Part shown: positions 13,910 through 24,405 of the stretch, piece by piece
How positions within the stretch are numbered: the first letter of the stretch is position 1
How the letters are laid out: each line of letters starts with the position of its first letter
Origin: Clostridia bacterium
GTDB taxonomy: Bacteria > Bacillota > Clostridia > Oscillospirales > CAG-272
DNA length: 56,984 bases
Assembly (NCBI GenBank): GCA_017625755.1
Contig: JAGAKG010000029.1
Span: forward strand, 1 to 56,984
Direction: 5' to 3'
Position numbers and translations under genes: made by a program
Notes under the pieces: generated by a model
What the model saw: only the letters and a program-made list of their open reading frames with translations
Database searches by the model: none
What the model was told of the DNA's origin: nothing

Positions 13910-14509
13910 ATGGCAGACTATATTGAATCCTTGCAGAAGCTTTCGGAGCAGTTCGGCAGACTTCAGGGAGTAGGTCGCAAATCTGCGATGAGAATGGCGT
14001 TTTCCGTGCTTGAAATGGAGGAGTCGGCTGTTGAGGAATTTGCCCGCGCCTTGATTGAAGCAAAGCAGCTTATCCATGAGTGTCCGATATGCGGAAATCT
14101 TACCGATAAAGAGGAATGCTCGGTATGCTCGGACTTGTCGCGCGACAGAGGGCTTATCTGCGTTGTTGAAGATGTAAAGGCGGTCATGTCAATAGAGAAG
14201 GTCAGGGAATTCAAAGGGGTATATCATGTCCTTCACGGAGTCATATCGCCGATAAATGGGATCACCCCCGATAAAATAAGATTCAGAGAGCTTATTGAAA
14301 GAGCGGGTGACGGAAGCGTGAGAGAGGTTATTATAGCAACTAATCCCACGCCTGACGGAGAGGTTACCGCGGGATATATATCGAAATATCTGAAGCCGCT
14401 CGGAGTCAAGGTCACAAGACTTGCATACGGTGTTCCCGTTGGCTCTGACCTTGAGTATGCCGACGAGGTAACGCTCGGACGGGCAATAGAGGGCAGACGA
14501 GATGTATAA
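13910..14509 (+). CDS. recR: Recombination protein RecR
   Basis: A 199-residue RecFOR-pathway protein that helps load RecA on gapped DNA. It shows the helix-hairpin-helix (GRLQGVGRKSAMRMAF), a C4 zinc finger (CPICG, then CSVCS, residues about 57-73), a TOPRIM core beginning ICVVED, and the family text HVLHGVISPINGI. Length is standard. Starts 1 nt after ybaB, so translation is probably coupled; ends before a double-hairpin terminator. Confidence 0.97.
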   Translation: MADYIESLQKLSEQFGRLQGVGRKSAMRMAFSVLEMEESAVEEFARALIEAKQLIHECPICGNLTDKEECSVCSDLSRDRGLICVVEDVKAVMSIEKVREFKGVYHVLHGVISPINGITPDKIRFRELIERAGDGSVREVIIATNPTPDGEVTAGYISKYLKPLGVKVTRLAYGVPVGSDLEYADEVTLGRAIEGRRDV

Positions 14510-14511
14510 TT

Positions 14512-14580
14512 GAGGCTGAGTTGTTCGGGCAGAACAAGACATAGGTTCTGCTTTTGAATGACTCAACCTCTTTTGTTTTG
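14512..14580 (+). terminator. Terminator after recR
   Basis: A nested structure: inner stem GCAGAAC/GTTCTGC (14529-14535 with 14545-14551) inside outer stem 14512-14521/14561-14570 (one mismatch), then a T-rich tail. Confidence 0.8.
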
Positions 14581-14632
14581 CTTTTTATATCTAAGAGGAA
14601 AAAAATTTTAATTTTTATCGACAAAAAATTGT

Positions 14633-14670
14633 GAAAATCTATGGACATTTTCAAGATGATGTAGTATAAT
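14633..14670 (+). promoter_or_regulatory. Promoter of the hydrogenase cluster with overlapping inverted repeat
   Basis: TGGACA at 14642-14647, a 17-nt spacer and TATAAT at 14665-14670. A perfect inverted repeat GAAAAT (14633-14638) and ATTTTC (14647-14652) with 8-nt spacing straddles the -35 box and is a candidate operator. It does not match the Rex consensus well, so the regulator is unknown. Confidence 0.65.
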
Positions 14671-14676
14671 ATAAGG

Positions 14677-14862
14677 GAATATGGGATAGCTTTGCTTTTT
14701 AGCGCGTTGCGAGGTTCCATAAACCATAAAAATGAATTGCCGTTCGTCTTTTTTAGAAATCTTTGTTAAAAAAATGACTAACTCGGCGCTTTTTGCGCGT
14801 CTCCGACCACTCGGGTCAAAAGAAAATTTTAAGTAGCGCGGTTTTCCGTAGCGGAGGAAAGT
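14677..14862 (+). other. Long untranslated leader of the hydrogenase cluster
   Basis: About 185 nt lie between the predicted transcription start and the first gene. It contains short stems (for example GCGCTTTTTGCGC near 14798) and ends in GCGGAGGAAAG, a strong ribosome-binding site. No known riboswitch class was recognised; the length leaves room for RNA-level control. Confidence 0.4.
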
Positions 14863-15219
14863 ATGAAAATCAGAACCATAGCAGAATTGCTTGATGCCAA
14901 GGTGCTTTGCGGAGCAGAAAATATCGACAAAGAGGTTCATTCCGCTTGCGGATGCGACATGATGAGCGATGTTCTTGCATTTGTCAAAGAGCAGGCGGTG
15001 CTAATTACTGGGCTTTGCAATCCTCAGGTAGTAAGAACTGCCGAGATGATGGATATGAGATGTATCGTGTTCGTTCGGGGCAAAACTCCTCCAAAGGAGG
15101 TAATCGCTCTTGCTGAGGATGCTGGGATAGTCATTCTTGCGTCTAACGAGAGGATGTATGTTGCTTGCGGTAAGCTTTACGCAAACGGACTCTCGGGAGG
15201 GAGTGTTGTAAATGGCTGA
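14863..15219 (+). CDS. DRTGG-domain protein (first copy)
   Basis: A 118-residue stand-alone DRTGG-type domain, the fold also found at the N-terminus of HPr kinase and in phosphotransacetylases. Typical text: GCDMMSDVLAFVKEQAVLITG, a central TAEMMDMRCIVFVRGKTP and AEDAGIVILASNERM. No catalytic motif is present, so a sensing or protein-binding role is likely. It opens the hydrogenase cluster and overlaps the next gene by 8 nt, which implies translational coupling. A second copy lies at 16958. The general DRTGG assignment is good; the ligand is unknown. Confidence 0.8.
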   Translation: MKIRTIAELLDAKVLCGAENIDKEVHSACGCDMMSDVLAFVKEQAVLITGLCNPQVVRTAEMMDMRCIVFVRGKTPPKEVIALAEDAGIVILASNERMYVACGKLYANGLSGGSVVNG

Positions 15220-15634
15220 TTGCGTAAATTTCCATTTTGATATCGACGGCGATAATTTTACATCTGCGGGAGAGGCTTCCGTAAGAATAAAGAAGTTGCT
15301 TCGTCAGATGGAGTTTGACGCCGAGATCATAAGACGCGTTTCGGTCGCTATGTACGAGGGAGAGATCAATATGGTCATTCACGCCGATGGCGGAACGGCT
15401 GATGTGAATGTGTACTGCGACAGAATAGAAATAATACTTAAAGACAACGGTCCCGGTATCCCCGATATAAACCTTGCTATGCAGGAGGGGTATTCCACCG
15501 CACCTGACAATATCCGTTCTCTCGGATTTGGCGCGGGAATGGGACTTCCCAATATGAAGCGATACACAGATGGCATGAAAATTGAATCAGAGGTAGGCAA
15601 GGGTACGACGATTTATATGACTGTCAACGCCTGA
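15212..15634 (+). CDS. RsbT/RsbW-like ATP-binding protein (HATPase_c)
   Basis: A 140-residue single-domain GHKL ATPase resembling the anti-sigma or switch kinases RsbW/RsbT. The N-box region reads VAMYEGEINMVIHADGG, followed by the G1 box KDNGPGIPDINLAM, the sequence EGYSTAPDNIRSLGFGAGMGL and the closing MKIESEVGKGTTIY. These kinases phosphorylate partner proteins on serine or act by binding. No STAS-domain partner, sigma factor or PP2C phosphatase is encoded in the window. It overlaps the upstream DRTGG gene and precedes the sensory hydrogenase by 24 nt, so its target may be one of these. Confidence 0.85.
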   Translation: MADCVNFHFDIDGDNFTSAGEASVRIKKLLRQMEFDAEIIRRVSVAMYEGEINMVIHADGGTADVNVYCDRIEIILKDNGPGIPDINLAMQEGYSTAPDNIRSLGFGAGMGLPNMKRYTDGMKIESEVGKGTTIYMTVNA

Positions 15635-15658
15635 GCATAGCCTCGGAAAGAGGTCGCA

Positions 15659-16936
15659 ATGTCAATAAAAAAACATTCTGTTACATTGGATGTGTCACGC
15701 TGTAAGGGCTGTACGAACTGTATAAAGCGCTGTCCCACCGAGGCAATAAGAGTCAGAGACGGACACGCAACCATAAAAGAGGACAAATGTATAGACTGCG
15801 GAGAGTGCATAAGACTTTGCCCGTATCAGGCAAAGAAGGCTATTTTTGACAGTCTTGAAGATTTTGCGGGATATAAATATAAAATTGCTTTGCCCGCGCC
15901 CGCCTTTTACGGTCAGTTTGAGGACCTTGACGATATAGATGAAATACTCACAGCACTGCTTGAGTGTGGATTTGACGCAGTTGTCGAGGTATCGAGAGCC
16001 GCGGAAATAGTTACGGAATATACAAGAAGATATTTGAAGAAGGAGGGGCTACCAAAGCCGATAATAAGCTCGGCTTGTCCCGCAATAGTAAGACTTATAA
16101 GTCTGCGCTTCTCGTATCTTACGGAAAATCTGCTTCCGCTTATGCCGCCTATTGAATACGCGGCACGCCTTGCGAGAAAAGAAGCAATGAGAGACCACCC
16201 CGAGCTTTCAGACTCGGATATATGCGTTCTCTTTATCTCACCCTGTCCCGCAAAGGTAAGTTATATAAAAAATCCTATCGGTGTTACCAAGAGCGCGGTA
16301 AACGGCGCGCTTGCGGTGAGCGATATGTATTTCAAAACGAGAGCTAAGCGCAAGGAGGTAAAGAATCCTCTGCCGCTCTCCAAAACGGGTATAATCGGTC
16401 TTAACTGGGCAGGTACGGGAGGAGAAGCTACATCGCTTCTGTCCGATAAATATCTTGCCGCAGACGGAATAGAGAACTGCATAAAGGTTCTTGACCAGAT
16501 AGACAGCGGAACGATACATAATCTTGATTTCGTTGAGCTTAACGCTTGTAACGGTGGTTGTGTCGGAGGAACGCTTAATGTAGAAAACCCGTATATAGCA
16601 AAAGCGAGACTCAGGTCTCTGAGAAAATATCTCCCGGTTTCGAGAAACAGAGTTGCCGATGACGCGGAAAATTCTGTGCCTCGCGAGGTTATGCTTGATA
16701 AAGAGATTGAGGATAGCTACTCCTCAAGCATCACGACAGACAGAGCGACCGCTATCAGACAGATGACGGCTGTCGAGGAGATATATAAACGCCTACCCAA
16801 GATAGATTGCGGCTCGTGCGGAGCGCCTAATTGCCATGCGCTCGCCGAGGACATAATCAAAGGCGAGGCAGAGGAGACCGATTGCCTTATCAAGCTCAGA
16901 GATATTTATATTGCTAACGAGCCTGAGGATAATTGA
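15659..16936 (+). CDS. Putative sensory [FeFe]-hydrogenase (group D-like)
   Basis: A 425-residue iron-sulfur protein. Residues 15-25 and 44-54 each hold a CX2CX2CX3C ferredoxin motif. The H-cluster domain keeps the four [4Fe-4S] ligand positions: C140 (SACPAIV), C196 (SPCPAK), C297 and C301 (ACNGGC). In the first motif the proton-transfer Cys of catalytic enzymes (TSCCPxW) is Ala139. A C-terminal CX2CX4CX16C cluster motif lies at 384-409. Ala in the proton path and this extra cluster are features of slow, sensory-type hydrogenases (groups C/D). There is no PAS domain, unlike group C HydS. It sits among kinase-like and DRTGG genes upstream of the catalytic hydrogenase, so an H2 or redox sensor controlling it is the favoured reading. 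Confidence 0.82.
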   Translation: MSIKKHSVTLDVSRCKGCTNCIKRCPTEAIRVRDGHATIKEDKCIDCGECIRLCPYQAKKAIFDSLEDFAGYKYKIALPAPAFYGQFEDLDDIDEILTALLECGFDAVVEVSRAAEIVTEYTRRYLKKEGLPKPIISSACPAIVRLISLRFSYLTENLLPLMPPIEYAARLARKEAMRDHPELSDSDICVLFISPCPAKVSYIKNPIGVTKSAVNGALAVSDMYFKTRAKRKEVKNPLPLSKTGIIGLNWAGTGGEATSLLSDKYLAADGIENCIKVLDQIDSGTIHNLDFVELNACNGGCVGGTLNVENPYIAKARLRSLRKYLPVSRNRVADDAENSVPREVMLDKEIEDSYSSSITTDRATAIRQMTAVEEIYKRLPKIDCGSCGAPNCHALAEDIIKGEAEETDCLIKLRDIYIANEPEDN

Positions 16937-16957
16937 TAATAAATGAGGTGATAAGCT

Positions 16958-17284
16958 TTGACAGTAAAGGAGCTTTGCGAAAAAAACGGATATGAGGCGC
17001 TTTGCCTGCCGGAGCCCGACAGAGAGGTCACGGGAGGATATACGGGAGACCTGCTGAGTTGGGTTATGGGACGCGCCGAATCGGGAGACGCATGGATAAC
17101 CATAATGTCAAACCTTAATATAGTTGCCGTGGCATCGCTTGCCGATCCCGCTTGTATAGTGCTTGCGGAGGGAGTAAGCCCCGATGACGGAGTTCTGCAG
17201 AGAGCCGAGACGCAGGGAGTCAATATACTCAGAAGCGTTAAGGATAGCTTTGCGGTGTCTGCCGAGATAGCTGCGCTTTTATGA
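16958..17284 (+). CDS. DRTGG-domain protein (second copy)
   Basis: A 108-residue relative of the protein at 14863, with the equivalents SWVMGRAESGDAWITIMSN, LADPACIVLAEGVSPDDGV and AETQGVNILRSVKDSFAVS. It begins with TTG; GAGGTG sits 7 nt upstream and no better start exists. It overlaps the PHP gene by 4 nt (ATGA). Having two diverged DRTGG proteins in one cluster suggests a heteromeric or two-input sensing role; this is inference. Confidence 0.78.
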   Translation: MTVKELCEKNGYEALCLPEPDREVTGGYTGDLLSWVMGRAESGDAWITIMSNLNIVAVASLADPACIVLAEGVSPDDGVLQRAETQGVNILRSVKDSFAVSAEIAALL

Positions 17285-18024
17285 ATAAATACTACTATGA
17301 CTTGCATATTCATTCTTGTCTTTCTCCCTGCGGAGACGATGATATGACGCCGAATAATATAGCGGGTATGTCAACTTTGAACGGACTTAATATCGTGGCG
17401 CTTACAGACCATAATACAGCGAAGAACTGTCCCGCCTTTTTCGAGGCGTGTAAGAAATACGGTTTGATACCGATAGCGGGTATGGAGCTTTCGAGCGCCG
17501 AGGATATTCACCTCGTCTGCCTTTTTCCAGAGCTTGAGCAGGCGATGGAGTTCGATAGAGTCATAGAGGGGCATCTGCCCGATATCGCCAACCGTCCCGA
17601 TATATTCGGAAATCAATTGATTCTGAACGGAGAGGACGAGCAGATAGGTATCGAAAACAAATTGCTTATCACAGCTACCGACCTGTGGGCGGCAGATGCA
17701 ATAGAGCTTGCGAGGTCGTACGGCGCTCATGTGCGCCCTGCGCATATCGACCGTACCTCAAACGGTATGATAGCCATTCTCGGAGATGTTCCGAAAGAGT
17801 ATCGCTTCAACTTCGTCGAATTCAACGATAGAAGAAATACTAAGGAATATTTCTCTAATTACCCTTCGCTTGAAGGGAAATCGGTGATTGTAAGCTCTGA
17901 CGCTCACCACCTGTGGGATATAGCGCAGGCAGAGAATTATTTCGAGCTTGAGGACGAGCCGTATAGCTCGGCAAGAGTGCGCCAAGCCTTTTTCGAGGCT
18001 TTGGCGGAGAACAAAATTTTGTAA
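17281..18024 (+). CDS. PHP-domain metal-dependent phosphoesterase
   Basis: A 247-residue PHP-family hydrolase related to the TrpH/YciV-like group. Metal-binding motifs are in place: DLHIHSCLSPCGDD at the N-terminus, ALTDHNTAKN, the GMELSS glutamate, RPAHID, and VSSDAHHLWD near the C-terminus. TrpH-type enzymes act on RNA or nucleotide 3',5'-bisphosphates; substrate here is unknown. It overlaps the upstream DRTGG gene, is followed by about 50 AT-rich nt and then nuoE, and belongs to a gene order seen beside hydrogenase operons in other Clostridia. Confidence 0.85.
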   Translation: MNKYYYDLHIHSCLSPCGDDDMTPNNIAGMSTLNGLNIVALTDHNTAKNCPAFFEACKKYGLIPIAGMELSSAEDIHLVCLFPELEQAMEFDRVIEGHLPDIANRPDIFGNQLILNGEDEQIGIENKLLITATDLWAADAIELARSYGAHVRPAHIDRTSNGMIAILGDVPKEYRFNFVEFNDRRNTKEYFSNYPSLEGKSVIVSSDAHHLWDIAQAENYFELEDEPYSSARVRQAFFEALAENKIL

Positions 18025-18076
18025 TTTATTAATTAAATAAATTAAATAAAATAAAATACGGAGGATTTTTTTCGGT

Positions 18077-18571
18077 ATGAAAAAGAATTTGACCACAGTA
18101 ATGTTCCGTGGTACAAAGGCTCAGGAAGAACAGCTTATTGCTGAAATCGAGAGTCTCCGCGGCACACCCGGTGCAATGATGCCCATTCTCCAGAAGGCGC
18201 AGGAAATCTACGGATATCTGCCCATCGAGGTACAGAGAATCATTGCAGAGCATACGGGAGCTTCGCTTGAGGAAGTATACGGTGTTTCCACCTTCTACTC
18301 TCAGTTTGCTCTCAATCCGAAGGGAGAGATCTCTATCGGAGTATGTCTTGGAACTGCTTGCTATGTAAAGGGAAGCGGTGACATTTTGGACAGAATAGTT
18401 GAGGTTCTCGGATTGCCCGCAGGCTCAACGACACCCGACGGTAAGTTTTCGCTTGAGGCTACGAGATGTATAGGCGCTTGCGGACTCGCACCCGTAATTA
18501 CTATTAACAATGATGTTTACGGTAAGCTCACCAAGGCTGATGTAGACGGAATACTTGCAAAGTACAGATAA
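18077..18571 (+). CDS. NuoE-like [2Fe-2S] subunit of NAD-linked [FeFe]-hydrogenase
   Basis: A 164-residue thioredoxin-fold ferredoxin subunit, corresponding to HydC or HndA in multimeric hydrogenases. The four cluster cysteines are in CLGTAC and CIGAC (residues about 92-137). An N-terminal helical region precedes them (LQKAQEIYGYLPIEVQRIIA), as in NuoE/HoxE. It transfers electrons between the flavin subunit and HydA. ACGGAGGATTTTTTTCGGT precedes the start. It opens the structural half of the cluster. Confidence 0.92.
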   Translation: MKKNLTTVMFRGTKAQEEQLIAEIESLRGTPGAMMPILQKAQEIYGYLPIEVQRIIAEHTGASLEEVYGVSTFYSQFALNPKGEISIGVCLGTACYVKGSGDILDRIVEVLGLPAGSTTPDGKFSLEATRCIGACGLAPVITINNDVYGKLTKADVDGILAKYR

Positions 18572-18576
18572 TCCGA

Positions 18577-19140
18577 ATGAAAGAACTGTCTCTTAACATA
18601 CTTGATGTAACAAAGAATTCGGTCACGGCAGGGGCGGATAAGATACTTATAACGCTTGAGCTGTCCGAGGACGGCTGGCTCACATTTACCGTTGCGGACA
18701 ACGGCTGCGGAATGAGTGACGAGGTGCAGAGACGGGTCACCGACCCCTTTTATACCACCAGAACGACAAGAAAAGTCGGAATGGGCTTGCCGCTTCTGAA
18801 GCTTGCTTCGGAGCAGACGGGCGGGGAAATGAGGATAGCTTCCTCTACCGAAAAGGGTAAGAGCGGAACGACTCTGACGGCTACCTTTGATACTAAAAGC
18901 ATAGATTTTATGCCCGTGGGCGATATCGTGTCAACGGTGTGTATCCTGATTTCGGGAAGCCCTGATATACATTTTGTTTTCAGGGATATTACGCCTGACG
19001 GTACCGTAAGTCTTGACACATCGGAGCTTAAAGCGGTTCTGGGAGATGAAATATCTCTCGCAGAACCCGAGATAATGGCTTGGATGAGCGATTATCTGCG
19101 TGAGCAGTATGAAGAACGACGGCTAAAAGGCAAACAATAA
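18577..19140 (+). CDS. Histidine-kinase-like ATPase domain protein in hydrogenase cluster
   Basis: A 187-residue protein with a HATPase_c domain at residues 1-115: N-box ILDVTKNSVTAGAD, G1 ADNGCGMS, F-box DPFYTTRTTRKVGMGL and G2 EKGKSGTTLTATF. There is no dimerisation/phospho-acceptor helix, sensor domain or membrane segment, and no response regulator nearby. The C-terminal 70 residues are family-specific (IDFMPVGDIVSTVCILI). It lies 5 nt after the nuoE-like gene and 35 nt before the ferredoxin gene, an insertion seen in other clostridial hydrogenase operons. Function is not established. Confidence 0.85.
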   Translation: MKELSLNILDVTKNSVTAGADKILITLELSEDGWLTFTVADNGCGMSDEVQRRVTDPFYTTRTTRKVGMGLPLLKLASEQTGGEMRIASSTEKGKSGTTLTATFDTKSIDFMPVGDIVSTVCILISGSPDIHFVFRDITPDGTVSLDTSELKAVLGDEISLAEPEIMAWMSDYLREQYEERRLKGKQ

Positions 19141-19175
19141 ATTGCAAAAATAAGATTATATACGGAGGAATCAAA

Positions 19176-19544
19176 ATGAAAACATTGGCGGAACTTGCTG
19201 CTATCAAGGCAAGAATGCAGAATAATGTTACGCTTCGCGAGGGCGCTGCACAGACAAGAGTTGTTGTCGGAATGGCTACCTGCGGAATCGCGGCGGGAGC
19301 CAGACCTGTTCTCGCGGCATTTGTTGACGGCGTAAACAAGGCGGGACTTACCGATAAGGTAACTGTAACGCAGACAGGTTGTATCGGTATATGCCAGTAC
19401 GAGCCCGTTGTTGAGATTTACGAGGAAGGCAAGGAAAAGGTCACCTATGTAAAGCTTGACGCTGATAAGGCGGCAGAAATAGTTGAAAAGCACCTCAAGG
19501 GTGGCAACATCGTTACAGAGTACACAATAGGCGCTATCAAATAA
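19176..19544 (+). CDS. [2Fe-2S] ferredoxin-domain hydrogenase subunit (HndB-like)
   Basis: A 122-residue thioredoxin-like ferredoxin. Cysteines occur in MATCGIAAGA and in QTGCIGICQYEP, matching the usual four-Cys [2Fe-2S] pattern. Equivalent to HndB/small ferredoxin subunits of NADP- or NAD-linked [FeFe]-hydrogenases, it probably relays electrons at the flavin subunit. Start has TACGGAGGAATC upstream; the HydB-like gene follows after 28 nt. Confidence 0.9.
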   Translation: MKTLAELAAIKARMQNNVTLREGAAQTRVVVGMATCGIAAGARPVLAAFVDGVNKAGLTDKVTVTQTGCIGICQYEPVVEIYEEGKEKVTYVKLDADKAAEIVEKHLKGGNIVTEYTIGAIK

Positions 19545-19572
19545 GATTTAACTTGATGAAAGGAAATAGAAA

Positions 19573-21369
19573 ATGGTAAGATCACATGTATTGATTTGTG
19601 GCGGTACAGGTTGTACTTCATCAGGAAGCGTCAAGATTCTGGACGCGATGAATGCTGAGATCGCTGCAAAAGGTCTTCAGGACGAGATCAAGGTCGTCGG
19701 AACAGGTTGTTTCGGACTTTGCGCACTCGGTCCGATTATGATTGTTTATCCCGAAGGAACATTTTACAGCTGCGTAAAGGTTGAAGATGTTCCCGAGATC
19801 GTTGAGGAGCATCTTCTCAAGGGTCGTCCCGTTGAAAGACTCGTTTATCACGAGACAAAGTCGGAGGACCCCCATCACGCAACCTCTCTCTCCGAGACTG
19901 CTTTCTATAAGAAGCAGAAGAGAGTTGCGCTTCGTAACTGCGGTGTAATCAACCCCGAGAATATCGACGAGTACATAGCTATGGACGGTTATGCGGCTCT
20001 TGGTAAGGTACTTACCGAGATGACTCCCGATGATGTTATCCAGACAATTCTCGATTCAGGTCTCCGCGGACGCGGAGGCGGCGGATTCCCCACAGGTCTT
20101 AAGTGGAAGTTCGCATCGGGCAACCGTGGAAATGTAACGAAATATGTCGCTTGTAACGCAGACGAGGGTGACCCCGGAGCGTTCATGGACCGTTCGATTC
20201 TCGAGGGTGACCCCCATGCGGTTATCGAGGCTATGGCTATCGCGGCTTACGCTATCGGAGCCAACGAGGGTTATGTATATGTAAGAGCGGAGTATCCTAT
20301 CGCTATCCACCGTCTTGAGGTTGCTATCAAGCAGGCTCGTGAGTACGGACTTCTCGGAAAGAATATCTTCGGAACCGGATTTGATTTCGATATGTTCATT
20401 CGTTTCGGCGCTGGCGCGTTCGTATGTGGTGAGGAAACAGCTCTTATGACCTCTATCGAGGGTAACAGAGGTGAGCCTCGTCCTCGTCCTCCTTTCCCCG
20501 CAGTAAAGGGACTTTTCGGACAGCCTACTGTTCTTAACAATGTTGAGACATACGCTAACATTCCTCAGATAATCCTTAACGGCGTTGACTGGTTCAAGTC
20601 TATGGGTACTGAGAAATCGAAGGGAACTAAGGTATTCGCTCTCGGCGGAAAGATCACCAATACAGGTCTTGTTGAGGTTCCTATGGGAACAACTCTCCGC
20701 GAGGTAATTGAGGAGATCGGTGGCGGTATTCCTAACGGAAAGACCTTTAAGGCTGCTCAGACGGGTGGACCTTCGGGTGGATGTATCCCCGCATCTCTCA
20801 TCGATACTCCTATCGACTACGATAACCTTATCGCTATCGGCTCTATGATGGGTTCGGGCGGACTTATCGTTATGGACGAGGATACCTGTATGGTTGACCT
20901 TGCGCGCTTCTTCCTCGACTTCACGGTTGACGAGTCCTGCGGAAAGTGTACTCCTTGCCGTGTTGGTACAAGAAGACTTCTTGAGATACTCGATAAGATC
21001 ATCGCAGGAAACGGTGAGATGGAAGACCTCGACAGACTTGAGGAGCTTTCCAACTACATCAAGAGCGCATCTCTCTGCGGACTTGGACAGACAGCTCCTA
21101 ACCCTGTTCTTTCCACGCTCCGTTACTTCAGAGACGAGTATGTTGCTCATATCGTTGATAAGAAATGTCCCGCGGGCGTATGTAAGAGCCTGCTTCAGTA
21201 CAAGATCGACCCTGACAAGTGTAAGGGCTGTACGCTCTGCGCTAGAAAGTGTCCCGTTGGAGCTATCAGCGGAACCGTTAAGAATCCTCACACCATTGAT
21301 ACCGCAAAGTGTATCAAGTGCGGAGCTTGTATGGATAGCTGTAAGTTCAAAGCAATTTATAAGGAATAA
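19573..21369 (+). CDS. NuoF-like flavin/iron-sulfur subunit of [FeFe]-hydrogenase (HydB)
   Basis: A 598-residue diaphorase subunit. Residues 1-100 are a thioredoxin-like [2Fe-2S] domain. The NuoF core has the FMN/NAD site GRGGGGFPTGLKW, then ADEGDPGAFMDR, GEETALMTSIEGNRGEPRP, and the [4Fe-4S] motif CGKCTPCRVGTRR. The C-terminus holds two ferredoxin clusters (CKGCTLCARKCP and CIKCGACMDSCK). In T. maritima-type HydABC enzymes this subunit oxidises NADH and is the proposed site of flavin-linked bifurcation between NADH and ferredoxin. Whether this enzyme bifurcates is not visible in sequence. Codon usage is unusually uniform, suggesting high expression. Confidence 0.95.
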   Translation: MVRSHVLICGGTGCTSSGSVKILDAMNAEIAAKGLQDEIKVVGTGCFGLCALGPIMIVYPEGTFYSCVKVEDVPEIVEEHLLKGRPVERLVYHETKSEDPHHATSLSETAFYKKQKRVALRNCGVINPENIDEYIAMDGYAALGKVLTEMTPDDVIQTILDSGLRGRGGGGFPTGLKWKFASGNRGNVTKYVACNADEGDPGAFMDRSILEGDPHAVIEAMAIAAYAIGANEGYVYVRAEYPIAIHRLEVAIKQAREYGLLGKNIFGTGFDFDMFIRFGAGAFVCGEETALMTSIEGNRGEPRPRPPFPAVKGLFGQPTVLNNVETYANIPQIILNGVDWFKSMGTEKSKGTKVFALGGKITNTGLVEVPMGTTLREVIEEIGGGIPNGKTFKAAQTGGPSGGCIPASLIDTPIDYDNLIAIGSMMGSGGLIVMDEDTCMVDLARFFLDFTVDESCGKCTPCRVGTRRLLEILDKIIAGNGEMEDLDRLEELSNYIKSASLCGLGQTAPNPVLSTLRYFRDEYVAHIVDKKCPAGVCKSLLQYKIDPDKCKGCTLCARKCPVGAISGTVKNPHTIDTAKCIKCGACMDSCKFKAIYKE

Positions 21370-21387
21370 GAAAGGAGAACAGTGGAC

Positions 21388-23130
21388 ATGGAAACAATTA
21401 ATGTTAAAATTAACGGCGTAGACTATGCCGTACCGAAGGGATCCACGGTTCTTGAAGCTGCTAAGGCTGCTAATATAGACATTCCCACACTCTGCTATCT
21501 CAAGGATATCAACGAGATTGGCGCTTGCCGTCTCTGCCTTGTTGAGGTATCCGAGGGAGGAAAGCCTTACAGACTCGTAACAGCTTGCGTATATCCCGTT
21601 ACCGAGGGTATGTCGATACTGACAAATACCCCCAAGATTATGCAGTCCAGAAAGACAAACCTCGAGCTGGTTCTTTCCACGCACGAGAAGAAATGTCTCT
21701 CCTGCGTAAGAAGCACCACCTGTGAGCTTCAGAAGCTCTGCCTTGAATACGGCGTTGACGAAACAAGATTCAAGGGTGAGAGAATTGAATATGCTATCGA
21801 CGACGCATCTCCTATCATTCGTGATAATAATAAGTGTATCCTTTGCCGTCGTTGCGTAGCGGCATGTAAGAATGTTCAGGGAATTGGCGTTATAGGCGCT
21901 AATGACCGTGGATTTGATACACATATCGCATCCGCATTCGAGATGCCTTTGGTAGAAACCTCTTGTATCAACTGTGGACAGTGTATAGTATCTTGTCCTG
22001 TTGGCGCTATCTACGAGCGCGACGATACAGATAAGATAAGAGAAGCTATCGCAGATCCCACAAAGCATGTATTTATCTGCACAGCACCCTCTGTTCGTGC
22101 GCAGATCGGCGAGTGCTTCGGCTACGAGCCCGGAACAGACTGCGAGGGCAAGATGGTTGCAGCTCTCAAGAGACTCGGCTTTGACGGCGTTTATGATATG
22201 AACCTCACAGCTGACCTCACGATCATGGAGGAGGCTACCGAGTTCCTCGGACGCGTTAAGAACGGTGGAAAGCTTCCTATGATCACATCCTGCTCGCCCG
22301 GTTGGATCAAGTACTGCGAGCATTACTATCCTGAGTTCATAGACAATCTCTCGACCTGTAAGTCTCCTCAGCAGATGTTCGGCGCAGTAGTAAAGACATA
22401 CTACGCAGAGAAGATGGGTTGGGATCCTAAGGATATATTCTTCGTATCCGCAATTCCTTGTACAGCTAAAAAGTTCGAGGTTGGCAGACCTAATCAGGCA
22501 GCTGCGGGCGTCCCCGATGTTGATGTCGCAGTTACGACCCGTGAGCTTGGCAGAATGATAAGCACAGCAGGAATCAACTTCAAGGCACTTCCCGACGAGA
22601 GCTTCGATACTCCTTTCGAGATCGGTTCTGGCGCAGGCGCTATCTTCGGAGCAACAGGCGGTGTTATGGAGGCAGCTCTTCGTACAGCGGCTGAGGTTAT
22701 CGAGGGCAAGCCTCTTGAGAAGCTTGAGTTCAACGAGGTTCGTGGTGTTGAGGGCGTTAAGCTCGCAACCTACAAGCTCGGAGATATCACTCTCAATGTT
22801 GCGGTTGCTTCGGGTACAAAGAACGCGAAAAAGGTTCTTGATGCAGTTAAGGCTGGCGAGCTTGATGTTCAGTTCATCGAGATCATGGCATGTCCCGGCG
22901 GTTGCGTAAACGGCGGCGGTCAGCCCATTCAGCCTGCTGATGTAAGAATGTCTATCGACCTTCGTGCAGTTCGTGCAGCAGTTCTTTATAACGACGATGT
23001 TACATCTGATGTAAGAAAGTCTCACGAGAACTCTGCTGTTAAGAAGCTCTACGACGAGTACTTCGGCGAGCCCAACAGCCATAAGGCACACGAAATTCTC
23101 CACACAACCTATGTTAAGCGCGGTCTGTGA
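21388..23130 (+). CDS. Catalytic [FeFe]-hydrogenase subunit, group A (HydA/HndD-type)
   Basis: A 580-residue H2-evolving subunit. In order: plant-type [2Fe-2S] domain (C36, C47, C50, C67), His-ligated cluster (H99, C103, C106, C112), two [4Fe-4S] motifs (150-160 and 193-203), H-cluster domain, and a small-subunit-like tail. H-cluster motifs are TSCSPGW (300-306), IPCTAKK (C358) and EIMACPGGCVNG. The second Cys of the textbook TSCCPxW is Ser303. ATG at 21388 is preferred to a GTG 6 nt earlier because AAAGGAG sits 10 nt upstream of the ATG. Maturases HydE/F/G are not in the window. A strong terminator follows. Confidence 0.95.
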   Translation: METINVKINGVDYAVPKGSTVLEAAKAANIDIPTLCYLKDINEIGACRLCLVEVSEGGKPYRLVTACVYPVTEGMSILTNTPKIMQSRKTNLELVLSTHEKKCLSCVRSTTCELQKLCLEYGVDETRFKGERIEYAIDDASPIIRDNNKCILCRRCVAACKNVQGIGVIGANDRGFDTHIASAFEMPLVETSCINCGQCIVSCPVGAIYERDDTDKIREAIADPTKHVFICTAPSVRAQIGECFGYEPGTDCEGKMVAALKRLGFDGVYDMNLTADLTIMEEATEFLGRVKNGGKLPMITSCSPGWIKYCEHYYPEFIDNLSTCKSPQQMFGAVVKTYYAEKMGWDPKDIFFVSAIPCTAKKFEVGRPNQAAAGVPDVDVAVTTRELGRMISTAGINFKALPDESFDTPFEIGSGAGAIFGATGGVMEAALRTAAEVIEGKPLEKLEFNEVRGVEGVKLATYKLGDITLNVAVASGTKNAKKVLDAVKAGELDVQFIEIMACPGGCVNGGGQPIQPADVRMSIDLRAVRAAVLYNDDVTSDVRKSHENSAVKKLYDEYFGEPNSHKAHEILHTTYVKRGL

Positions 23131-23154
23131 TTAGAGAATAACGCATAAGTGATA

Positions 23155-23190
23155 GGGAGCATCTCCACAAAAGGAGATGCTCCCTTAATT
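23155..23190 (+). terminator. Terminator of the hydrogenase cluster
   Basis: A 12-bp perfect stem GGGAGCATCTCC/GGAGATGCTCCC (23155-23166 with 23173-23184) followed by TTAATTT. Confidence 0.85.
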
Positions 23191-23196
23191 TCATAT

Positions 23197-23232
23197 AAAA
23201 AACGGTGAATCAATATCGAAACACCGTTTTTT
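23197..23232 (-). terminator. Terminator of the aminotransferase operon
   Basis: An 11-bp stem AAAAAACGGTG/CACCGTTTTTT with 14-nt loop; the minus strand ends in a T run just past the aminotransferase stop codon. It can work in both directions. Confidence 0.8.
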
Positions 23233-23238
23233 CTTATT

Positions 23239-24405
23239 TTAAAGTGATTTTACACAAGCTTCAATTCTTTCAAGCGCCTGAGTTATGTGCTTGATTGAAT
23301 AAGCGTAGGATATACGCGCAAAGCCCTCGCCGCCCGCGCCGAAGGCACCGCCGGGAACTATTGCGCATTTGTAATCATAAAGGAGCTTGTTGCAGAAATC
23401 CTCGCCCGACATACCGAAATCTCCGATTTTCGGGAAGATATAAAATGCTCCTTCGGGTTCAAAGGACTCAATTCCGATGCTCTTGAGACCGTTGTATATG
23501 TATCTGCGGCGTCGGTTGTATTCCTCGCGCATCATAGCTATATCCTCGTCGCCGTTTTTCAGAGCCTCGATAGCGGCAAACTGCGAGGTCGTGGGGGAGG
23601 ACATAATTCCGTACTGATGAATTTTCAGCATTTGCTCAGCGAGAGGAGCGGGAGCGCAGATATAACCCAGACGCCAACCCGTCATTGCGTAAGCCTTGGA
23701 AAATCCGCTCGCAACGATAGTTCTTTCCCACATACCGTCAATAGAAGCTATCGAGCAATGATTGCCCGTGTATGTAAGCTCGGCGTATATCTCGTCGGAG
23801 AGAACGATAATATTCGTATCACGGAGAATTTCGGCAATATCCTCAAGCTCCTCGCGCGTCATAATCGCGCCCGTGGGGTTGTTGGGATAGGGGAGAACCA
23901 AGAGCTTTGTCTTGTCGGTTATAGCAGCCTTGAGGGCTTCGGGATTTATCTTGAAGCCGTCCTCAAATTTTGTTTCGAGTATAACAGGCTTCGCGCCTGC
24001 CATTCTTGCCAAAGGAGCATAACAAACAAAAGAGGGAGTTGGAACTATTACCTCGTCACCTGGCTCGATAATCGAGCGGAACGCAATGTCGATAGCCTCG
24101 CTTCCGCCGACCGTCACTATAACCTCTTTTTCTGGGGAATAGGAGACATTGAAGCGTCTCGTCATATAATTGTTTATCTCGGAGCGAAGCGTCATAAGAC
24201 CTGCGTTTGCTGTGTAATAGGTCTTTCCGCGCTCAAGGCTTTCAATACCCGCCTCGCGAATGTGCCAAGGGGTCTGAAAATCGGGCTCGCCAACGGTAAG
24301 TCCGACGACATCATTCATCGTACTCATCAAATCAAAGAATTTACGGATACCCGACTTCGGGGTATCAACAACGGTTTTTGAGAGAACCTTGCTATAATCT
24401 ATCAT
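23239..24405 (-). CDS. PLP-dependent aminotransferase, class I/II
   Basis: A 388-residue fold-type I aminotransferase (aspartate/aromatic aminotransferase superfamily, PatA-like). Visible: VGEPDFQTP, LPYPNNPTGA, SDEIYAELTY, and the PLP-lysine motif SGFSKAYAMTGWRLGY, plus the C-terminal ARISYAYS arginine. Substrate cannot be read. It overlaps the Lrp gene by 1 nt (TGATG), so the two are translationally coupled and the regulator probably senses an amino acid handled by this enzyme. Last gene of the minus-strand unit. Confidence 0.92.
   Translation of the reverse strand: MIDYSKVLSKTVVDTPKSGIRKFFDLMSTMNDVVGLTVGEPDFQTPWHIREAGIESLERGKTYYTANAGLMTLRSEINNYMTRRFNVSYSPEKEVIVTVGGSEAIDIAFRSIIEPGDEVIVPTPSFVCYAPLARMAGAKPVILETKFEDGFKINPEALKAAITDKTKLLVLPYPNNPTGAIMTREELEDIAEILRDTNIIVLSDEIYAELTYTGNHCSIASIDGMWERTIVASGFSKAYAMTGWRLGYICAPAPLAEQMLKIHQYGIMSSPTTSQFAAIEALKNGDEDIAMMREEYNRRRRYIYNGLKSIGIESFEPEGAFYIFPKIGDFGMSGEDFCNKLLYDYKCAIVPGGAFGAGGEGFARISYAYSIKHITQALERIEACVKSL

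Follow-up and report, generated by a model that had tools for sequence, protein, structure and literature searches.

A conserved five-gene cassette of Clostridia joins a group D hydrogenase-like protein to a SpoIIAB-type ATPase, two DRTGG proteins and a PHP phosphoesterase

Gene order and spread of the cassette

The window analysed here, positions 1–56,984 of contig JAGAKG010000029.1 of a Clostridia bacterium (assembly GCA_017625755.1; lineage given to the family level as Oscillospirales; CAG-272), carries five tightly packed genes at positions 14863–18024 of the forward strand. According to the open reading frames (ORFs) and the sequence, they encode a first DRTGG protein (DRTGG1, 118 aa, 14863–15219; PF07085 over cut-off), a SpoIIAB-type ATPase and predicted serine kinase (HATP1, 140 aa, 15212–15634; HATPase_c/HATPase_c_2 and TIGR01925), a putative group D (M2e) hydrogenase-like iron–sulfur sensor (HydS, 425 aa, 15659–16936; Fe_hyd_lg_C, N-terminal ferredoxin motifs, and C-terminal PF04060), a second DRTGG protein (DRTGG2, 108 aa, 16958–17284, with a TTG start; PF07085 over cut-off), and a PHP phosphoesterase (PHP, 247 aa, 17281–18024; PF02811). 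DRTGG1 and HATP1 overlap by 8 nt (15212–15219), and DRTGG2 and PHP overlap by 4 nt (17281–17284). The first-pass annotation of this DNA had described five packed genes with overlaps of 4–8 nt, lying directly upstream of NAD-linked hydrogenase genes that enclose a second orphan HATPase, and the ORFs and the domain scan agree with it on both points. Its span ran to 19140, of which the five genes occupy the part up to 18024 and HydC and the second HATPase take up the rest.

To follow this arrangement across the class, we compared two sets of loci with the window. The class sample consisted of 196 genomes drawn evenly from the class, in which HydS was accepted only at E 2e-80 or better; 100 places in 99 of the 196 genomes (two in G188) reached this level, and the next matches, relatives of roughly 560–920 aa, start at 8e-42. 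As named loci, we took the best 80 of at least 577 relatives, a set biased toward close kin. The 99 other class places and the 80 named loci (179 in all) were annotated with profiles built from the window's own cassette proteins. Loci with less than 1.5 kb to the left or less than 2.5 kb to the right of HydS were dropped before the order was counted (19 of the 99 class loci and 20 of the 80 named loci), which left 80 class loci and 60 named loci intact.

The cassette is real and widespread. The order DRTGG1–HATP1–HydS–DRTGG2–PHP is kept in 77/80 intact class loci and in 60/60 intact named loci, with L145, L174, and L182 as the exceptions. In this gene-neighbourhood survey, which the first-pass annotation had called for, the cassette families co-occur far beyond this genome, and the link that it drew between a sensory-type hydrogenase, a kinase, a DRTGG pair, and a PHP protein recurs in almost all intact loci. 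The DRTGG1 profile matched 99 of the 196 class genomes, 97 of which carry HydS, and only 2 of the 97 genomes lacking HydS were matched. The mismatch between DRTGG1 and HydS in 4/101 genomes is explained by contig ends: HydS lies at a contig end in G049 and G084, the contig stops after HATP1 in G132, and the match in G065 is DRTGG2 at a contig start.

Divided loci suggested how the cassette may be organised. In G021, DRTGG1–HATP1–HydS lies on one contig and DRTGG2–PHP–HydC–HATP2–Trx–HydB–HydA on another, while in G010, DRTGG1–HATP1–HydS–DRTGG2 stands apart from PHP–HydC–HATP2–Trx–HydB–HydA. In both genomes, the part left with the hydrogenase operon includes PHP, accompanied by DRTGG2 in G021 and alone in G010. 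About 4 kb separates HydS from DRTGG2–PHP in L132 and L140. From these split loci, the cassette would consist of a sensor half and an effector half.

Six cassette loci (L078, L080, L089, L095, L102, and L103) come from records with the labels Coriobacteriales, Atopobiaceae, or actinobacterium, suggesting either transfer out of Clostridia or mislabelled bins. A second DRTGG1 copy in G055 (L212:7977–8773) has short HydA fragments behind it and resembles a relic.

Features of the cassette proteins

By sequence, HydS is a group D (M2e) "sensory" [FeFe]-hydrogenase of the TamHydS kind, an assignment that falls short of establishing it as an H2-binding enzyme. The window protein contains two N-terminal [4Fe-4S] motifs (8 Cys) and all four cysteines of the H-cluster cubane (Cys140, Cys196, Cys297, and Cys301), which are invariant in 100/100 class rows, the window included, and in 80/80 named rows. 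Ala139 is located at the C299 position and Ser194 at the M353 position (Ser/Thr in 179/180 rows), Cys384, Cys387, Cys392, and Cys409 form the C-terminal Cx2Cx4Cx16C motif, and the protein ends just past this cluster, with no PAS domain detected in the Pfam scan. Loss of C299, replacement of M353 by Ser/Thr, the C-terminal Cx2Cx4Cx16C, and the lack of PAS are the group D features given in the accessible part of the TamHydS study by Land et al. (PMC8163306), and HydS shares all of them with TamHydS, together with the two N-terminal sites and the cubane cysteines. By our own positional matching, Arg31, Arg33, Glu397, and Asp398 of HydS, kept in 179, 141, 173, and 179 of 180 rows, correspond to Arg30, Arg32, Glu392, and Asp393, which are listed as conserved charged residues of TamHydS in the portion of PMC13104023 available. 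Glu293 (180/180 rows) and Glu256 (Glu in 165/180) were matched in the same way to Glu289 and Glu252 of TamHydS, and Glu289 belongs to a proposed proton path according to the accessible text of PMC10407848. In the HydS of L192, L193, L195, L197, and L200, all from maturase-lacking genomes, Asp occupies the C299 position, where group D has Ala.

The TamHydS locus resembles the cassette in lying upstream of HydABC with a histidine kinase-like ATPase alongside, and a sensing role was proposed there, as far as the available part of Land et al. (PMC8163306) goes. Besides the ATPase, the same part names an "AraC" regulator; it mentions no DRTGG pair or PHP, no fixed five-gene order, no non-hydrogenase contexts, and no maturase-lacking hosts. 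Three close relatives of DRTGG1 carry the source label "predicted transcriptional regulator", and the "AraC" gene beside TamHydS may be DRTGG1. In the literature searched, which covered few subscription papers, nothing relevant on DRTGG with hydrogenase was found, nor any account of the two DRTGG proteins, of PHP, of the constant gene order, of cassettes away from hydrogenase genes, or of the maturase gap described below.

Group C HydS proteins with PAS, as in Thermotoga maritima, Ruminococcus albus, and HfsB of Thermoanaerobacterium, have the sensory-type hydrogenase domain in common with the cassette protein, whereas the window HydS lacks PAS. The relatives of roughly 560–920 aa, which share 26–33% identity with the window HydS, probably belong to group C, judging by length and score. 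Loss of HfsB alters fermentation, and HfsC beside it has homology to serine phosphatases, a place taken by PHP in the cassette; both statements follow the part of PMC11837493 that was accessible.

Comparison with named families and solved structures placed HATP1 nearest to SpoIIAB. TIGR01925 (SpoIIAB) is its best named family (E 9.6e-18; 64.4 bits, under the cut-off of 135), its profile matches anti-sigma F at E 8e-11, and the nearest solved structures are SpoIIAB. The name RsbT-like, used in the first-pass annotation, was therefore set aside, as SpoIIAB and anti-sigma F scored best and RsbW far lower, RsbT itself not being among the families compared. Glu49, Glu51, Asn53, and His57 are present in 175/175 rows, and the E-x3-N-x3-H box (N-box), whose residues we take to be catalytic, is intact. 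The Pfam scan detected ATPase domains only in HATP1 (140 aa) and in the second HATPase, HATP2 (187 aa), with no dimerisation or phospho-histidine domain. It found no response regulator, STAS protein, or sigma factor among the ten proteins encoded at 14863–23130, the other loci not having been scanned for STAS or sigma factors. A two-component system was rejected on the grounds of these ATPase-only proteins and the missing response regulator. The absence of the usual partners (STAS, sigma factor, PP2C, and response regulator), claimed at first pass, holds at the locus and fails genome-wide, with one SpoIIE-type protein and one STAS protein located elsewhere. This STAS protein, the only one over cut-off in the genome, is SpoIIAA in a SpoIIAA–SpoIIAB–sigma operon; since it already has its own SpoIIAB and sigma factor, no spare STAS protein was found for HATP1.

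The DRTGG proteins carry strictly conserved residues, namely Ser35 of DRTGG1 (172/172 rows) and Asp31, Ser34, Thr48, and Asn54 of DRTGG2 (175/175 rows). A D-x-x-S motif is common to both, and Ser34 of DRTGG2 matches Ser35 of DRTGG1. In the predicted structure of DRTGG1 (mean predicted local distance difference test [pLDDT] of 91), Ser35 opens a helix after a strand. Fold searches revealed the same fold in AF1212 (2ioj), the DRTGG domain of a CBS pyrophosphatase (3l31), the HprK N-domain (1ko7), and Mur ligase N-domains, and no STAS fold was among the matches listed, 50 in each of two fold lists. AF1212, a solo DRTGG protein, differs in having neither a serine at the Ser35 position nor the D-x-x-S motif in the profile alignment. 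DRTGG1 and HATP1 form an overlapping gene pair, as do SpoIIAA and SpoIIAB in the same genome. The cassette shares with the SpoIIAA–SpoIIAB–SigF–SpoIIE and RsbV–RsbW–RsbU switches a SpoIIAB-type kinase directly after a small partner with an invariant helix-start serine, which in the STAS partner proteins is the phosphorylation site. In these switches, STAS and PP2C stand where the cassette has DRTGG and PHP, and a sigma factor takes part, which the cassette lacks. By analogy, the cassette would work like the SpoIIAA/SpoIIAB/SpoIIE partner switch while not being a member of that family.

In PHP, the positions of metal-ligand type, His9, His11, Asp43, His44, Glu69, His77, His155, Asp207, and His209, are each conserved in 167/167 rows, and these nine residues presumably coordinate metal. 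The AlphaFold2 model (pLDDT 95.9) is nearest in fold to EndoQ, RNase AM, TM0559 (a putative phosphoesterase), and the AMP-bound phosphatase 2yb1. Weak NCBIfam matches of PHP include 3',5'-nucleoside bisphosphate phosphatase.

Neighbouring genes and the maturase gap

In the window, the cassette is directly followed on the forward strand by a NAD-linked group A6 hydrogenase operon. It comprises HydC, a NuoE-like subunit (18077–18571; PF01257, E 2.3e-47), HATP2 (18577–19140; HATPase_c at residues 9–106), a HydD-like thioredoxin-like [2Fe-2S] protein (Trx, 19176–19544; PF01257 at cut-off), the NuoF-like HydB (19573–21369; PF01512 and PF10589), and the catalytic [FeFe]-hydrogenase subunit HydA (21382–23130; NF040763, 858 bits against a cut-off of 765). 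Ahead of the cassette, a consensus scan detected a sigma-70-type promoter-like site, TGGACA-17-TATAAT, at 14642–14670 on the forward strand (11/12), and the relatives L031, L032, and L033 keep this pair as TGGACA or TAGACA with TATAAT at the same spacing. No Rfam element at 14400–23300 reached the gathering cut-off, and a search for an operator-like inverted repeat near the cassette gave weak arms only.

Among the 80 intact class loci, HydB or HydA lies on the same strand in 56, the operon is divergent in L115 and L153, and L134 is cut by a contig end. Three loci (L179, L189, and L199) have Rnf as the neighbour and no hydrogenase genes, eight have PyrK/PyrD, two a GGDEF-EAL gene, and two a molybdenum aldehyde oxidoreductase; the remaining six (L126, L127, L145, L156, L174, and L192) have none of these, L192 having a HydC-like gene. 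The PyrK/PyrD loci all belong to one family (L164, L167, L170, L171, L173, L176, L180, and L181), in which the cassette is followed by PyrK–PyrD and then a weakly PyrE-like gene, without hydrogenase genes; this adjacency may reflect regulation or a chance neighbourhood. Because some cassettes adjoin Rnf or PyrK/PyrD, control probably extends beyond hydrogenase. The first-pass view that the module tunes the hydrogenase fits the HydABC genes adjoining most loci and is too narrow for the Rnf, PyrK/PyrD, molybdenum oxidoreductase, and GGDEF-EAL loci.

HATP2 occurs in 63/80 intact class loci, none of them a Pyr or GGDEF locus. It is likely a sixth member of the module, since it is found at all Rnf-only loci (3/3) and all molybdenum loci (2/2). 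HATP2 has an Asp-x3-Asn box (138/138 rows), a DPFxTTRTTRKVG motif, and about 80 C-terminal residues unmatched in the Pfam scan. Operons of bifurcating hydrogenases also hold an ATPase gene, hisK, and a further small gene, hydD, neither of which is part of the holoenzyme in the accessible part of PMC9304861; HATP2 and Trx can be equated with them by position and name only. Unlike hisK, as described there, HATP2 accompanies the cassette also where the locus has no HydABC.

The maturases of the [FeFe]-hydrogenase diiron site raise a separate question. In this genome, no HydE, HydF, or HydG was found over cut-off, by which we mean the cut-offs of the family models for maturases and hydrogenases alike. 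In the 99 HydS genomes, HydE, HydF, and HydG are over cut-off in 78, 79, and 78, respectively, and at least two of the three in 79, while 18, including this genome and the single-contig G063, have none. Of the 75 HydS genomes with a completeness of 95% or more, 14 belong to these 18, and the cubane cysteines of HydS are kept in 18/18. The lack of HydE, HydF, and HydG over cut-off makes it doubtful that HydS senses H2 through a diiron site in these 18 genomes. Of the first-pass idea of H2 or redox sensing, the sensory-type hydrogenase is borne out, and the H2 part is unproven for this organism, which has no maturase over cut-off. The claim of a gap is carried by HydG and HydE, because the HydF search scored just 9 first-look candidates in most genomes. 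A quick HydS tree requires 13 or more changes of maturase state, and assembly loss may therefore explain part of the gap. In one family (G056, G083, G111, G134, and G157), maturases are missing in 5/6 members.

Of 59 genomes from the family of the window, 54 have HydA over cut-off, 26 carry HydS, and 12 have HydG over cut-off; HydG, the only maturase searched in that sample, is present in 9/26 HydS genomes. We considered H-cluster decay behind the maturase loss and rejected it, as HydG-lacking and HydG-positive family members cannot be told apart by any HydS or HydA column. This comparison used 20 of the 26 family HydS genomes and the window (21 rows), with 12 lacking members plus the window against 8 for HydS or 6 for HydA. 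Since no column tracks the loss of HydG, the diiron site looks still under selection in this family. The HydA of the window contains the motif TSCSPGW, the classical HydA motif being TSCCP, and this serine is shared by 101/102 aligned HydA rows (exception L209). The motif was dismissed as a mark of loss, being equally present in HydEFG-positive genomes. Across the class sample, a group A [FeFe]-hydrogenase scores over cut-off in 167 genomes, and in 42 of them none of the three maturases does. Earlier cases of [FeFe]-hydrogenases lacking the maturases in whole or in part, Rhodospirillum rubrum and Entamoeba, appear in the available part of PMC4967309.

Candidate mechanism and alternative readings

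A phospho-module without STAS or PP2C is supported by the gene order, the unbroken kinase motif, and the serines that never vary. We tentatively read the five genes as one conserved cassette in which HydS gates a SpoIIAB-type kinase acting on DRTGG, with PHP removing the mark beside the controlled enzyme, and we give this reading somewhat less than an even chance. HydS would sense H2 or electron pressure and gate HATP1, HATP1 would phosphorylate DRTGG1, DRTGG2, or both on the invariant serine, and PHP would reverse the phospho-mark beside the controlled enzyme. The output would be the activity or expression of ferredoxin- or NAD-linked enzymes such as HydABC or, where it is the neighbour, Rnf. 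We infer every step of this chain, including the kinase activity, the DRTGG substrate, PHP as a phosphatase, control by HydS, and the output. A broader form is unlikely to hold in full, namely that a partner switch was rebuilt without STAS and PP2C across Clostridia to set flow through HydABC, Rnf, or other enzymes, with HydS acting as a pure [4Fe-4S] reader of ferredoxin state where HydEFG is missing.

Several observations weigh against the phospho-cassette. The nearest solved folds of PHP are not protein phosphatases, and they favour a nucleotide or nucleic-acid substrate, which makes PHP the weakest link of the mechanism. PHP also appears dispensable, since the hydrogenase operons of G037 and G065 (one genus) lack it. 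In the DRTGG1 model, the block that holds Ser35 (mean 75) is less certain than any other except the C-terminal tail, and a helix-start serine could be structural rather than a phosphorylation site. On the sensor side, the C-terminal cluster of TamHydS gave no response to H2, according to the accessible part of PMC13104023, and the maturase-less genomes bear on H2 sensing as described above. No fusion of any two cassette proteins was detected in the 179 loci and the window, the rows printed by the fusion scan being HydA, HydB, or Rnf-type ferredoxin-motif overlaps. In mean-field covariation on 132–172 paired rows (effective 107–140), inter-protein pairs fell short of the area expectation in each of the ten protein combinations tried, none of which included HydS, so that covariation gave no signal to discriminate by. 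As to output through expression, the Pfam scan matched none of the ten proteins at 14863–23130 (0/10) to a transcription-factor family.

The chief alternative, possible although on the doubtful side, is a nucleotide-signal module. Here the substrate cut by PHP would be a nucleotide or short oligonucleotide, the DRTGG proteins would be receptors for that ligand or for a nucleotide, and HATP1 would act not as a protein kinase but as a switch whose binding depends on ATP. The resemblance of PHP to EndoQ, RNase AM, and the AMP-bound phosphatase, its weak nucleoside bisphosphate phosphatase match, and the fold that DRTGG1 shares with the regulatory region of CBS pyrophosphatase and the HprK and Mur ligase N-domains are consistent with such a module. 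Given these nucleotide- and nucleic-acid-enzyme folds, the first-pass suggestion that PHP makes or removes a nucleotide signal stays an open option. However, the SpoIIAB-type box of HATP1 is intact in all 175 rows, the scan of the ten proteins matched no nucleotide-making family, and no ligand has been demonstrated for the conserved DRTGG residues.

It is quite unlikely that HATP1, HATP2, DRTGG, and PHP are assembly or repair helpers that build or protect an iron–sulfur enzyme, with HydS as a scaffold or small hydrogenase. The cassette is also found next to Rnf, PyrK/PyrD, or a molybdenum oxidoreductase, none of which needs an H-cluster, or next to none of them, and it is no substitute for HydEFG, at least two of which are held by 79/99 genomes. 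What speaks for helpers is that the cassette lies within the HydABC operon, with HydC in front, in 50/60 intact named loci and 12/80 class loci, and that HATP2 and Trx resemble hisK and hydD, operon genes outside a related holoenzyme in what was available of PMC9304861.

Use of HydS as a redox sensor without a diiron site, reporting ferredoxin redox state through its [4Fe-4S] clusters in the HydEFG-lacking genomes, is improbable. The 18 maturase-less genomes, most of them at least 95% complete and one in a single contig, would suit it, as would the cubane cysteines kept in all of them; yet no HydS or HydA column splits the HydG-lacking from the HydG-positive family members, genes may be missing from metagenome bins, and HydF was scored on just 9 first-look candidates in most genomes. 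Cross-talk with the classical switch is equally improbable: HATP1 is SpoIIAB-like and could, in a genome that also encodes SpoIIAA, SpoIIAB, a sigma factor, and a SpoIIE-type protein, bind or phosphorylate SpoIIAA or hold the sigma factor and tie sporulation or stress genes to H2, but SpoIIAA and the sigma factor already have their own SpoIIAB, the fixed DRTGG partners would be left without explanation, and neither STAS nor sigma factor is encoded among the ten proteins scanned.

The signalling route of group D hydrogenases is an open question, given that they lack PAS and that, in the accessible part of PMC13104023, the C-terminal cluster of TamHydS gave no response to H2. A second question, separate and of wide reach, is why many genomes with intact HydS and HydA genes have no HydEFG. 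For the first, the fixed partner set found in half of the sampled class genomes supplies named candidates, a kinase, two substrates, and a phosphatase, which may bear on how gut and rumen fermenters set their H2 output.

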